NCBI GenBank assembly: GCA_945862245.1 | Contig: CAMAXN010000007.1 | Span: 1 to 64,000, forward strand | DNA length: 64,000 nucleotides | Reading direction: 5' to 3' | Source of the DNA: Prosthecobacter debontii | Lineage (GTDB): Bacteria; Verrucomicrobiota; Verrucomicrobiia; Verrucomicrobiales; Akkermansiaceae | Part shown: positions 16,549 through 21,231 of the stretch, in pieces | Position numbering within the stretch: position 1 is the stretch's first letter | Layout of the letters: each line of letters begins with the position of its first letter | Position numbers and translations under genes: made by a program | Notes under the pieces: model-generated | Seen by the model: the letters and a program-made list of their open reading frames with translations, nothing else | What the model was told of the DNA's origin: nothing | Databases searched by the model: none

Positions 16549-17205
16549 ATGAAGCATCGTTTCTTCGCAGAATTCCTCGGCACTTTCATCATGATTTTTG
16601 CAGGGACGGGAGCAATGATTGTGAATGAGATTTCAGGAGGAATCGTGACCCATGTTGGCGTCGCGCTGACCTTCGGACTCGTTGTCGCAGCGATGATCTA
16701 TACTTTCGGGGATGTGAGCGGCGCGCATCTCAATCCAGCGGTTTCGATCAGCTTCGCCGTCGCTGGACGATTTCCATTCGCAGATCTTCCGGCATATATC
16801 GCCGCCCAACTTCTCGGTGCACTGGCGGCCAGCGGCACACTCAAATTGCTTTTCCCTACCTCACAATCGCTGGGTATGACTCTCCCATCGGGATCCAATT
16901 CTCAGAGCTTTTTGCTGGAGGTCATTCTAACTGCCATCTTAATGCTGACAATTCTCAACGTCTCCCACGGAGCGAGGGAAAAAGGAATTACCGCAGCGAT
17001 TGCCATCGGTTCCGTTGTGGGACTCGAAGCGATGTTCGCTGGCCCGATCTGCGGTGCCTCCATGAATCCTGCTCGCTCGTTGGGGCCTGCATTGGTGAGT
17101 GGAAACTTCCAACACATCTGGCTCTACGTATTTTCCACGATCCTCGGCGCACTCATTGCTATCCCACTCTTCAAAATCACTCGCAAATCAGAAACGAATT
17201 CATGA
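16549..17205 (+). CDS. MIP-family aquaporin (AqpS-like), arsenic operon
   Basis: A 218-aa channel with six transmembrane segments and both NPA boxes: [10 protein letters not shown] in the first half and [10 protein letters not shown] in the second. In ars operons lacking ArsB or Acr3, an aquaglyceroporin of this kind (AqpS of Sinorhizobium) lets arsenite made by ArsC leave the cell down its gradient. No ArsB, Acr3 or ArsA is present in the window, so this channel is the only candidate arsenite exit. Start at 16549 follows the DUF6428 stop by four bases, and its stop overlaps arsC by ATGA. Confidence 0.92.
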
Positions 17206-17639
17206 AACCTCCCGCCATCCTAATCCTATGCACCGGCAACTCCTGCCGCTCCCATCTCGCCGAAGCCATCCTGCGAAAAGCCCTCGGCGAAAACTTCCGG
17301 GTCGAAAGCGCTGGTTCGAATCCCGCCGGATACGTCCATCCGCTAGCCATCCGCGCGCTCGAGGAAATCGGCATCGAAACCACCGGCCACCACTCGAAAC
17401 ACATGAACATCTTTCTCGATGACCAAGTAGAAACCGTCATCACCGTCTGCGGCAACGCCGACCAAGCCTGCCCGATGTTCCCCGGCCAGATGAACCGCCA
17501 CCACTGGCCCTTCGATGATCCAGCTCATGCCACCGGCACCGAGGAAGAGCAGTTCGCCGTCTTCCAGCGGGTGAGGGATGAGATTCTGAAAGTCTTCGGA
17601 GCTTACGCGGCGGGGAGGCTGGATGGTCGGAAGGGATGA
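17202..17639 (+). CDS. arsC: arsenate reductase, thioredoxin-coupled LMW-PTPase type
   Basis: A 145-aa enzyme reducing arsenate to arsenite. The phosphatase-like P-loop LCTGNSCRS provides the first catalytic Cys, and [10 protein letters not shown] supplies the Cys pair spaced six residues apart that forms the disulfide relay of the pI258-type, thioredoxin-dependent enzymes. [17 protein letters not shown] is the acid/base Asp loop. Its start overlaps the aquaporin stop, completing a four-gene operon arsR-DUF6428-aquaporin-arsC. It is followed by a palindromic repeat element rather than a simple terminator. Confidence 0.95.
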
Positions 17640-17652
17640 ATGACCTTGGACT

Positions 17653-17778
17653 GCTACAGCCTGCTGTAGCTTTCGGCCATGCAGCCTTGCTGCGAGCCGG
17701 ACGGCATTGGCATGTAGTTCGCCCAATCCACGCCGCTGACAGCAGGCTGTCTCGCGGAAAGCGGCAGCAGGCTGCCGC
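17653..17778. repeat. REPIN-like palindromic element between arsC and alaS
   Basis: Four hairpins are arranged symmetrically. GCTACAG-CCTG-CTGTAGC (17653-17670) and a smaller GCAG-CCTT-CTGC-type hairpin (about 17681-17693) form the left half. GACAG-CAGG-CTGTC (17738-17751) and GCGGCAG-CAGG-CTGCCGC (17761-17778) form the right half. Loops read CCTG/CCTT on the left and the complement CAGG on the right, so the halves are inverted copies. The same two-hairpins-per-end plan is seen in the transposase element inside alaS. It carries no gene and fills the arsC-alaS convergent gap, where it may also act as a terminator. Confidence 0.75.
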
Positions 17779-17790
17779 AGTCCATGGAGG

Positions 17791-20700
17791 CTACGCCTCG
17801 ATTTTCGCCATCATCGTCGCCTTGATTTCTTCCAGCTTCCCACGATCCGGTGCTGCGCCCCGTGCCTGATCGGGCTTGCCGCCGCCTTTGCCGCCAGCGA
17901 GGGCAGCTAGGTCGCGGAGGAGGTCGCCAGCTTTGAGGCCAGAGGCCAAGGCATCCGCGCCACAGTGGACGGCGAGGTGGAGTTTCTCTCCGTCATCGAC
18001 GATGAGCAGCGCCGGGCCGGGGAAATTCTTTTTCTTGAGACCGTTCTGGAGTTCTTGCAGCAGAGAGGCGTCGGACTCGAAGGAAACGACGATCGGTTTT
18101 CCCAATGCAATAAGCTCGGCGAGAGATTCGTCGGCGAGCGCGGCGGCCTGGGCGGATTGGATTTTCTTGATCCGTTTCTCGGCCTCGATGGCGGCTTCCT
18201 TGGTTTCCTCCAGCGTGCGCATACCGTGGGCGAAAGTGGCGTTGAGTTCGGCGATGTCCGCGCGTTCAACGAGCATCGCGCCCATGATGTGGGGGAATTC
18301 ATTGACGCTGAGCGGCTCTCCACCGAGTTCGGAAAGCTTCACGTTGGCGGCTTTTAGTTTCTCAGTGGCGGCCTTGAGATCCACATCCCAGCGCTCGACG
18401 TTCTCGCGAATGAGATTCCATGCAGCATCACCGCAAGCCGCCTCGATGCGGCGCACGCCGGATGCGATCGCTCCCTCCGACTTGATCTTGAAAAGTCCGA
18501 TCTCTGAGGTGTTGCGGACGTGGGTGCCGCCGCAAAGCTCCATGGAAGGGCCTTCAAGCTGGTTCGCCTGCCCGCCGATCTGGACGACGCGGACGGTGTC
18601 GCCATATTTGTCGCCGAAGAACTGCATGATGTCGGTGCGGTGCTTGATGTCGGCGTGTTTCACTTCTGTCCATGAAACGGTGAGACCCTGCTTGATCGCT
18701 CCATTCACCATCTCCTCCATCTCGGCCACCTGTTCGGACGTTACGGCAGCGCTGTTGAAGTCGAAGCGCAGTCGATTCTCATCCACCGCGGAACCCTGCT
18801 GCGCGGCGTCCTTGGAAACAACCTCGTGCAGCGCCCAGTGGAGAAGATGCGTGGCGGTGTGGTGGGCTTCGATGGGGCGGCGGCGTTGTGTGTCGAGACG
18901 CAGGACAACTTTGTCTCCGATTGAGATTTGAGATTTAAAATTTGAAATTTGAGATATCACCAGGGCGCGGGCTTTGCCGATTTGTTGGACGCCGGTGACG
19001 GGGATGTCGTTGAGCGTTCCTGTGTCTCCTGCTTGGCCGCCCATCTCGGCGTAGAAAACGGTCTTGTCGGTAATTACGAAGAGTGCGTCTTCCTGCGGAT
19101 GGATTTCCAGGATCATGGCTTCGCATTCGTCGTTATCAAAACCTAGGAATTCGGTGACGGCTTCCGTGAAAATATCGAGGGCACGGACGATGTTAGATTT
19201 TTGGGCGGCGCGTGAGCGTTCTTGTTGCTGCTCCATGAGTTTCTCGAAGCGGGGCATATCTACTTCCAATCCCAACTCGGATGCGAGGAGTTCTGTGAGG
19301 TCAATGGGGAAGCCGAAGGTGTCGTAAAGTTCAAAGGCGATCTCGCCAGAGATCGGGGAGCACACGCGCCCCCGCGTGTCGCAGGAGACGCCCTCGTCTC
19401 CTGCCGGCTCCGAACCAAGGACAAACTCCTGACACCATGTCCACGCGTAGTCCGGAGAGTTTTCCACAAGTTTCTCCGCCACTGTGTTGCCGAGAATATA
19501 TTTATATTTCTCAACCAGATCGGATTCACTACGGATTAAACGATCAAACCACTCCTTTTCCCAAAGATGCTTAATATTCTCATTGTTTAGATCAATCCGA
19601 CGATGCTTGAGGATTTTATGGGATGAGACGGATTTAATCGGCTGGAGAATTTCCGTGAGGCTAAAAAACACGGGATTGGAATCCGCATCGTAGGATTTCA
19701 CCTGAGGCTCGATGAGTAGATGAACGTGATCCGGCATGACGCAGGCGGCGTAGAGATGAATCTGGCCGAGCTTGCGGGCGTGGAGGATTGAATCGAGAAC
19801 GATGCTGCGCTCGGCATCGCTGAGGATGTCGCGATCTAGCGTGGTAAATGTGACCATGTATTTGCCCCATGGGCGCTCAAAATGGGGGAGGCTGCGGCGT
19901 GAATAGGTGGGTTCGGAGGCTTTTTGTGAATTAGGGCCGGCATGAGGCGAGGGCGCCTCATGCGACACGCGAGGGCGCGTGTGCTCCCCGACCGCTTCTT
20001 CGAAGCGTTTCAATCCCCGATCCAGCGTCTGGTTAAAACTTGATTCTTCGTTCGCCAGCGTTTGTTCGATCACATCCTGCCGATTCTTCAGCTCCGGGAA
20101 AACTCCACCCATTTCCGCGACCAGCGTTTCTACCAGCGCGCCGAAAAACGGCTTTTCTCCAGAGAAACCAAGCTGCCTTCCGTATCGAACAGCCCGACGC
20201 AAGATCCGGCGCAGCACGTAGTTCCTGCCGTTATTCCCCGGCATAATCCCATCCGCGATGGAGAAAGATAGAGTCCGCAGGTGATCCGCGATTACGCGGA
20301 AAGCGATGGCGGTTTTCATTTCCTCCGAGAAGGCGGAGCGGTCGGCACCTAGCTCGGGGTAGATGTCGGTGTAGGTTTTTTCGCTGAGTTCCTCCAGTTT
20401 ACTGAAGAGCGGCGTGAAAACATCGGTGGCGTAGTTCGAGGGCTTTTTCGAGAAATCGGAGAAGCCCTTAGTGCCCTGAATAATCGAGCAGGCGCGTTCG
20501 AAGCCCATGCCGGTATCGACGTGTTTGGCGGGCAACTCGCGGAAGCTGCCATCAGCCTCGGCGTTATATTGGATGAAGACGAGGTTCCAGATCTCGATGC
20601 AGAGGTCGGAGTCGTTATTGACGAGGTTGCGGCCGGTGACGGGATTCCCCTCGGGGGTGAGATCGACGTGGAGCTCGGAGCATGGACCACAGGGGCCAGT

Positions 20701-21231
20701 TTCTCCCATCATCCAGAAATTGTCTTTCACGTTGCCATGGACAATCTGAATTTCCGGATCACAACCCGCCGCGCGGAAAAGCTCCGCCCAGATGTCGTAG
20801 GCTTCTTGGTCGAAATTTCCGGGATCGCCCTCCTTGGGCGCATAGACCGAGGCGTAGAGTCGGTGCGCGGGCAGCCCCCAGCGCCCGACGACGAGCTCCC
20901 ACGCCCACGAGATTGCCTCTTTCTTGAAATAGTTCCCGAACGACCAGTTCCCCAGCATCTCGAACATGGTGTGGTGGTAGGTGTCGTAGCCGACATCCTC
21001 CAGGTCGTTGTGCTTGCCGCCCGCGCGGATGCATTTCTGGGTGTCTGCCGCGCGCGGCGGATCGTAAGGGGCTTTCTCGACTCCGAGGAAATACGGCACG
21101 AAGGGGTTCATCCCCGCGTTCGTAAAAAGCAGGCCCGGTGACTGCGGCAGCAGCGAGGCGGAGGGGACGATGGTGTGCTCTTTTTCACGGAAGAAATCGA
21201 GGAAGCTCTGGCGAATCTCGGAAGCAGTCAT
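17791..21231 (-). CDS. alaS: alanyl-tRNA synthetase with in-frame transposase insertion
   Basis: AlaRS charges tRNA-Ala and clears mischarged Ser/Gly. The frame encodes 1146 residues, about 212 more than it would without the insert. Residues 1-414 are the class II catalytic and tRNA-binding part (MTASEIRQSFLDFFREKEH, FTNAGMNPFVPYFLG, KCIRAGGKHNDLEDVG). Residues 415-626 are a foreign Y1 transposase segment. Residues 627 onward resume exactly with ISGEIAFELYDTFGFPIDLTE. The editing domain keeps its zinc ligands (HTATH at 791-795, CGGTH at 900-904) and the C-Ala domain is complete. A heptamer repeat adds a peptide near residue 760. No frameshift or stop is present, so the gene may still be functional; whether the fusion is tolerated, or removed in any way, is unknown. 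Confidence 0.9.
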   Translation of the reverse strand: MTASEIRQSFLDFFREKEHTIVPSASLLPQSPGLLFTNAGMNPFVPYFLGVEKAPYDPPRAADTQKCIRAGGKHNDLEDVGYDTYHHTMFEMLGNWSFGNYFKKEAISWAWELVVGRWGLPAHRLYASVYAPKEGDPGNFDQEAYDIWAELFRAAGCDPEIQIVHGNVKDNFWMMGETGPCGPCSELHVDLTPEGNPVTGRNLVNNDSDLCIEIWNLVFIQYNAEADGSFRELPAKHVDTGMGFERACSIIQGTKGFSDFSKKPSNYATDVFTPLFSKLEELSEKTYTDIYPELGADRSAFSEEMKTAIAFRVIADHLRTLSFSIADGIMPGNNGRNYVLRRILRRAVRYGRQLGFSGEKPFFGALVETLVAEMGGVFPELKNRQDVIEQTLANEESSFNQTLDRGLKRFEEAVGEHTRPRVSHEAPSPHAGPNSQKASEPTYSRRSLPHFERPWGKYMVTFTTLDRDILSDAERSIVLDSILHARKLGQIHLYAACVMPDHVHLLIEPQVKSYDADSNPVFFSLTEILQPIKSVSSHKILKHRRIDLNNENIKHLWEKEWFDRLIRSESDLVEKYKYILGNTVAEKLVENSPDYAWTWCQEFVLGSEPAGDEGVSCDTRGRVCSPISGEIAFELYDTFGFPIDLTELLASELGLEVDMPRFEKLMEQQQERSRAAQKSNIVRALDIFTEAVTEFLGFDNDECEAMILEIHPQEDALFVITDKTVFYAEMGGQAGDTGTLNDIPVTGVQQIGKARALVISQISNFKSQISIGDKVVLRLDTQRRRPIEAHHTATHLLHWALHEVVSKDAAQQGSAVDENRLRFDFNSAAVTSEQVAEMEEMVNGAIKQGLTVSWTEVKHADIKHRTDIMQFFGDKYGDTVRVVQIGGQANQLEGPSMELCGGTHVRNTSEIGLFKIKSEGAIASGVRRIEAACGDAAWNLIRENVERWDVDLKAATEKLKAANVKLSELGGEPLSVNEFPHIMGAMLVERADIAELNATFAHGMRTLEETKEAAIEAEKRIKKIQSAQAAALADESLAELIALGKPIVVSFESDASLLQELQNGLKKKNFPGPALLIVDDGEKLHLAVHCGADALASGLKAGDLLRDLAALAGGKGGGKPDQARGAAPDRGKLEEIKATMMAKIEA
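18921..18955. repeat. heptamer repeat inside alaS
   Basis: Five consecutive 7-bp units of the TTGAGAT type (TTGAGAT, TTGAGAT, TTAAAAT, TTGAAAT, TTGAGAT). On the coding strand they are translated as the peptide ISQISNFKSQIS in the linker just before the editing-domain DTQRR motif. AT-rich composition contrasts sharply with the GC-rich gene. Confidence 0.8.
19355..19403 (+). repeat. left terminal inverted repeat and hairpin pair of the RAYT element
   Basis: The outer 29 bp (19355-19383) match the complement of 19961-19989 at 28 of 29 positions by eye. It contains an outer hairpin CACGCG-CCCC-CGCGTG and, directly inside it, CAGGAGACG-CCCT-CGTCTCCTG (19382-19403), followed by CCGGC. Confidence 0.88.
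19940..19989 (-). repeat. right terminal inverted repeat and hairpin pair of the RAYT element
   Basis: The outer repeat (19961-19989) contains CACGCG-AGGG-CGCGTG. The inner hairpin has a perfect 10-bp stem, GCATGAGGCG-AGGG-CGCCTCATGC (19940-19963), preceded by GCCGG. The inner stem differs from that of the left end, but loop and position are conserved as the complement, which is the REP-pair arrangement. Confidence 0.88.

Follow-up and report, generated by a model that had tools for sequence, protein, structure and literature searches.

What occupies the gap between the convergent stop codons of arsC and alaS in this genome of Prosthecobacter debontii, and how did it get there? In the stretch of DNA analysed here (the window, 64,000 nucleotides), an arsC-like gene (17202-17639, + strand, from the ORF list) faces alaS (17791-21231, - strand, from the ORF list and a TIGR00344 match of 755 bits). 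We think it very likely (about 92%) that the element between them is a non-autonomous REPIN of about 144-150 bp, inserted by a RAYT of a Verrucomicrobiota/Planctomycetota clade. The direct support comes from its repetition, its covarying structure, its association with this RAYT clade, insertion polymorphism and the lack of a target duplication.

Structure and borders of the element

The element is a 144-bp inverted pair (17644-17787) that fills the gap to within 4 bp of the arsC stop codon and 3 bp of the alaS stop codon, in agreement with a preliminary description that had placed a non-coding two-hairpin element next to the 3' end of alaS. Its 44-nt arms (17644-17687 and 17744-17787) are 80% complementary. 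The preliminary description had given an inverted pair of about 126 bp at 17653-17778; the inverted pair stands, but these borders leave out the outer tips. The whole REPIN, as delimited by the inverted arms, the other genomic copies and 73 full copies, consists of two inverted, non-identical halves with two hairpins each and a variable centre, i.e., two inverted REPs and a spacer able to form a hairpin. Its ends carry the conserved outer tips CCTTGGACTGC and GCAGTCCATGG.

The left half is read on the + strand. According to position frequencies it begins with the terminal tetranucleotide CCTT (17644-17647; CCTT, ACAT, CTTT or CCAT in the family). The left outer REP tip GGACTGC-TACAGCCTGCTGTA-GCTTTC follows (17648-17674), identified by an exact pattern match and by compensatory stem changes; it comprises a 5' foot GGACT, a 7-bp stem and a 3' foot TTTC, and its hairpin is GCTACAG-CCTG-CTGTAGC (17653-17670). 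The left inner hairpin, of half type A (17681-17695, + strand, helix 2; TGCAG..CTGCG, ATGCAGCC..GCTGCGAG), reads GCAG(C)-CTT-(G)CTGC at about 17682-17694. In alignment A1 the spacer (17696-17737) is made of a conserved half-A tail CCGGACGGCATTGGCA, a variable centre and a conserved half-B tail. The right half lies on the - strand, with the inner hairpin GACAG-CAGG-CTGTC of half type B (17738-17752, helix 3), the outer REP tip GGACTGC-GGCAGCCTGCTGCC-GCTTTC (17757-17783; exact pattern match, helix 4), which includes the hairpin GCGGCAG-CAGG-CTGCCGC (17761-17778), and the terminal tetranucleotide CCAT (17784-17787, from the 73 full copies). A hairpin search recovered the loops previously described for the left and right hairpins. 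Across the 73 distinct full elements there is a sharp conservation border 4 nt outside GGACTGC, with background frequencies beyond position -4.

The predicted folds were stronger than those of every shuffled sequence, with z-scores of -5.3 for DNA and of -6.2 and -6.5 for RNA of either strand. When 20 copies were aligned, 97% of the cells in the four hairpins were paired, against 8-66% in slid controls, and 42 cells were changed on both sides, against a shuffled mean of 14.7. Compensatory changes occurred in all four stems, with both sides changed at seven pairs. The left inner hairpin (helix 2) had 99% of cells paired and two pairs changed on both sides; the right inner hairpin (helix 3) had 92% paired. 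The pattern used to search for tips leaves two stem positions free, and these were paired in 161 of 172 tips (82 expected), in the variants TA/TA, GG/CC, TG/CA, GT/AC and GC/GC. The stem itself is therefore under selection.

REP recognition has mostly been studied on GTAG-footed elements of Proteobacteria. The tetranucleotide GT[AG]G, which in canonical REPs stands 0-2 nt 5' of the hairpin, was not found at this position in the family between arsC and alaS, whose 5' foot reads GGACT or GAAA depending on the strand. We considered a GTAGG just outside CCTTGG in three copies of this genome and rejected it, as it is not conserved across the 73 copies. We thus class the family among REPIN-type elements, set apart from GTAG REPs by its atypical feet.

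Dispersal and insertion

In the genome assembly of the window (2.57 Mb, 83 contigs, 95% complete), whole elements or halves lie at 15 places on 11 contigs; one of these is a tandem dimer. The tip pattern matched ten times, against zero for a reversed control. Full copies mostly combine two different halves, type A (inner hairpin ATGCAGCC..GCTGCGAG) and type B (GAGACAGCCTGCTGTC), in either orientation around a variable centre. Tip pairs less than 300 bp apart were mostly convergent and inverted (78 of 92 were '+-', against three '-+', seven '++' and four '--'). The copies of this genome have a mean identity of 82%, i.e., about 18% differences. Most occupy the space between ORFs, often 2-5 bp from a stop codon, with a small number running into uncurated ORFs. 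In at least five, one border falls no more than 5 bp from a stop codon. The 14 copies outside the window's gap adjoin unrelated genes. The family is thus dispersed, repeated and mostly extragenic, as REPINs are. GTAG REPs show the same preference for the vicinity of stop codons, and some supply the stop codon themselves (Di Nocera et al., PMC3733652). Uniqueness in the genome and absence from relatives had been named in advance as grounds for abandoning the REPIN interpretation; with 15 places in the genome and the tip carried by 15 of 59 relatives, neither applies.

The site between arsC and alaS is not conserved in relatives. In two members of the genus (G031 and G007) the gap is compact and lacks the element; two others (G005, L219; G008, L220) have other inserts, different toxin-antitoxin-like gene pairs according to gene calls made by eye. 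Occupied and unoccupied sites therefore differ between species, and the convergent arsC-alaS gap has apparently taken up inserts more than once. The sister species G008 shares the flanks of a copy of this genome at four further sites, with an element present there, hence part of the family was inherited; L008 and L250, an orthologous pair, have 97% identity. The flanks of the elements show no target-site duplication above chance (five 5-mers observed, 5.3 expected). This is expected for HUH single-strand transposition, unlike that of most DDE elements.

A short palindrome, CCTACTAAGG or CTACTAAG..CTTAGTAG, recurs beside a T run next to REPINs or in an empty gap (right flank of L003, left flank of L135, L228 and L237), and may be a terminator or a further small repeat. 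The window does not contain the small hairpin CTACTAAG..CTTAGTAG that is seen in the empty arsC-alaS gaps.

Association with a clade of RAYTs

In several relatives the tip directly adjoins a short Y1/HUH-family ORF. RAYT genes are bracketed by REPs of this sequence in G020, G022, G052, G056, Akkermansiaceae M30B22, Prosthecobacter VE4 and two Planctomycetota. The copy count and the search for a RAYT with the same flanks, both proposed in the preliminary description, thus gave 15 places in this genome and such RAYTs in relatives. The proteins have an N-terminal WPHAPPH motif, HYH (NHYH) and YVHQN, each of them invariant or almost invariant, and the HYH, Tyr and Asn residues are invariant. They match the solved E. 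coli TnpAREP (PDB 4er8) with E = 4e-5, and Y1_Tnp weakly; against the NCBIfam model REP_Tyr_transpos (NF047646, cut-off 80 bits) they score 78.4-80.4 bits, with one of the three tested above the cut-off. They thus belong to the Y1/HUH fold family, with the HUH motif and the catalytic Tyr.

We inspected all RAYTs scoring at least 80 bits for hairpins preceded by GA[C/G]TG and followed by CT/TT after the stem. Nearly all were flanked by such hairpins on either side, in most cases in the form of whole REPINs. The RAYTs whose stem is AGCNNGCTG form one clade (100/100 support), in which the label of two members (L080 and L081) is based on degenerate tips. The feet GA[C/G]TG...CTTT also flank sister-clade RAYTs, among them the one encoded on contig C1 of this genome, but on different stems; in a comparison of 25 RAYTs, stem type tracked the clade. 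In a freshly collected set of 16 members of the clade, 12 had the tip within 450 bp and the remaining four have no exact tip nearby; none of the 13 sister-clade RAYTs inspected earlier had it. In 190 genomes of the order, at least two tips were found in 15 of the 21 with a clade RAYT and in 10 of the 169 without (Fisher p = 2e-11, a value that overstates independence given the kinship among genomes). A RAYT of this 'WPHAPPH...NHYH...YVHQN' clade is almost certainly the mover of the REPIN between arsC and alaS.

We propose the following chemistry and recognition code. Each inverted end carries one outer and one inner hairpin. The clade RAYT would recognise these ends as single-stranded hairpins, reading the feet (C)CTTGGACTG 5' of the stem and CTTTC 3' of it, cut there, copy the REPIN into the gap between arsC and alaS and insert it without target duplication. 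Selection would then leave copies in intergenic space, mostly at the 3' ends of genes.

Alternative explanations

The element might instead be a structured RNA, a bidirectional terminator or an mRNA-stabilising element kept for an RNA function of the arsC-alaS pair. It lies between convergent genes, its RNA folds strongly on either strand and its stems show compensatory changes, all of which this explanation would accommodate. Yet we found no stem followed by a T run at 17400-18000, hence no signature of an intrinsic terminator, and no Rfam family above threshold (best score 22.9 bits, cut-off 137). Members of the genus have a compact gap or a different insert at this site, and the other 14 copies lie beside unrelated genes. 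We therefore regard an RNA function as very unlikely to be what maintains the element, and the earlier suggestion of a double-strand terminator between arsC and alaS was not borne out. A secondary effect of the REPIN on transcript ends is possible, by analogy with what is reported for REPs generally. A MITE mobilised by a DDE transposase would also be short, non-coding and dispersed with terminal inverted repeats. However, the ends are hairpins, the linked transposase is a Y1/HUH RAYT and not a DDE enzyme, and 5-mer duplications are no more frequent than expected (5 vs 5.3), so that we give this possibility hardly any credence.

If the element is a REPIN, as we favour, its mover could still be a resident RAYT and not a missing one, either the sister-clade RAYT of contig C1 (130338-130844) or the RAYT inside alaS. 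The former is intact, its REPIN has the same feet GA[C/G]TG...CTTT, and that REPIN has no dispersed exact copies of its own. Nevertheless, the REPs on either side of it have another stem (GGCGAT..TTCGCC), and stem type tracks clade across the 25 RAYTs; we rejected it as mobiliser on the basis of this stem. The RAYT inside alaS was discarded because its 61-nt ends are unrelated in sequence to the element between arsC and alaS. Mobilisation by a resident RAYT is thus unlikely. The RAYTs flanked by the same sequence in relatives favour instead a RAYT of another subtype, as had been anticipated.

An apparently orphaned REPIN population

We did not find the cognate RAYT in the 95% complete assembly of this genome. 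The best match was the RAYT of contig C1, which is 47% identical and has other flanks. Contigs often break at repeats and, given this and the completeness of the assembly, the cognate RAYT may be missing from it or lost. The copies of this genome look orphaned; their modest number and mean identity of 82% make current mobility doubtful. In contrast, G052 has the RAYT together with 20 identical tips. Most simply, the copies of this genome would be an ageing REPIN population whose RAYT was lost or left unassembled. This genome may thus offer a picture of a REPIN population without its RAYT in the assembly, with old, diverged copies, some of which a sister species has also inherited.

The C1 locus (G000:C1:130158-131005, L085) is a second REPIN-RAYT unit, in which two REPINs of stem GGCGAT..TTCGCC flank an intact sister-clade RAYT. 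The exact tip of this unit has no other occurrence in the genome.

Comparison with known systems

By its architecture, dispersal and linkage with a RAYT, the element is a REPIN as defined by Bertels and Rainey (2011, PMC3116915). Like the REPINs or BIMEs of Pseudomonas and E. coli, the family has two inverted REPs with a spacer, intergenic dispersal, halves that can pair into a single hairpin and a link to a specific RAYT; its halves are of two subtypes, as in the Y/Z2 BIMEs of E. coli (PMC3116915). It differs from them in lacking the GTAG/GTGG foot, in having two hairpins per half, in its length (144-180 bp, not about 70-110 bp), in its copy number (about 15, not hundreds) and in its hosts, Verrucomicrobiota and Planctomycetota. 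Atypical feet have a precedent, since RAYTs of subclass 2.6 and class 3 have atypical flanking structures without GTAG (Quentin et al. 2018, PMC6006769). As in those groups, the RAYTs studied here are flanked by hairpins that recur in the genome without GTAG, and their Y motif YVH[QN]N[AP] resembles the YIH[QN]NP of subclass 2.6. Unlike them, they have HYH instead of H[LIV]H, the N-terminal WPHAPPH, and the feet GA[C/G]TG and CTTT. Long inverted ends with recurring copies of the ends are shared with TIRYTs (PMC3733652), whereas the clade RAYTs are commonly bracketed by two complete REPINs and not by one half per end.

A search of the open literature returned no description of this Verrucomicrobiota/Planctomycetota REPIN family or of its feet. 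We consider it somewhat better than an even bet that these elements form a REPIN-RAYT superfamily of the two phyla, in which a two-part code, constant feet (GA[C/G]TG before and CTTT after the stem) common to all its RAYTs and a clade-specific stem, would replace the GTAG guide, with a whole REPIN on each side of the RAYT and apparent movement between phyla in addition to vertical descent. The uniform non-GTAG feet and clade-specific stems of this large set of RAYTs make the putative code testable by swapping stems and feet. Planctomycetota RAYTs (L108 and L154) are mixed in one clade with Verrucomicrobiota RAYTs (L135 and L057). This phylogenetic pattern suggests transfer between phyla, and bears on the claim that RAYTs are inherited solely vertically.

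The TIRYT plan (PMC3733652) fits better the RAYT inside alaS. The only alaS found in the genome carries this insertion in frame and free of stop codons (window positions 19348-19996). Its two-hairpin ends of 61 nt are 89% complementary; as noted in the preliminary description, they share the two-hairpin plan of the element between arsC and alaS, with hairpins of other sequence. Since the alaS frame is open over 1146 aa, an alanyl-tRNA synthetase with an internal transposase may be made.
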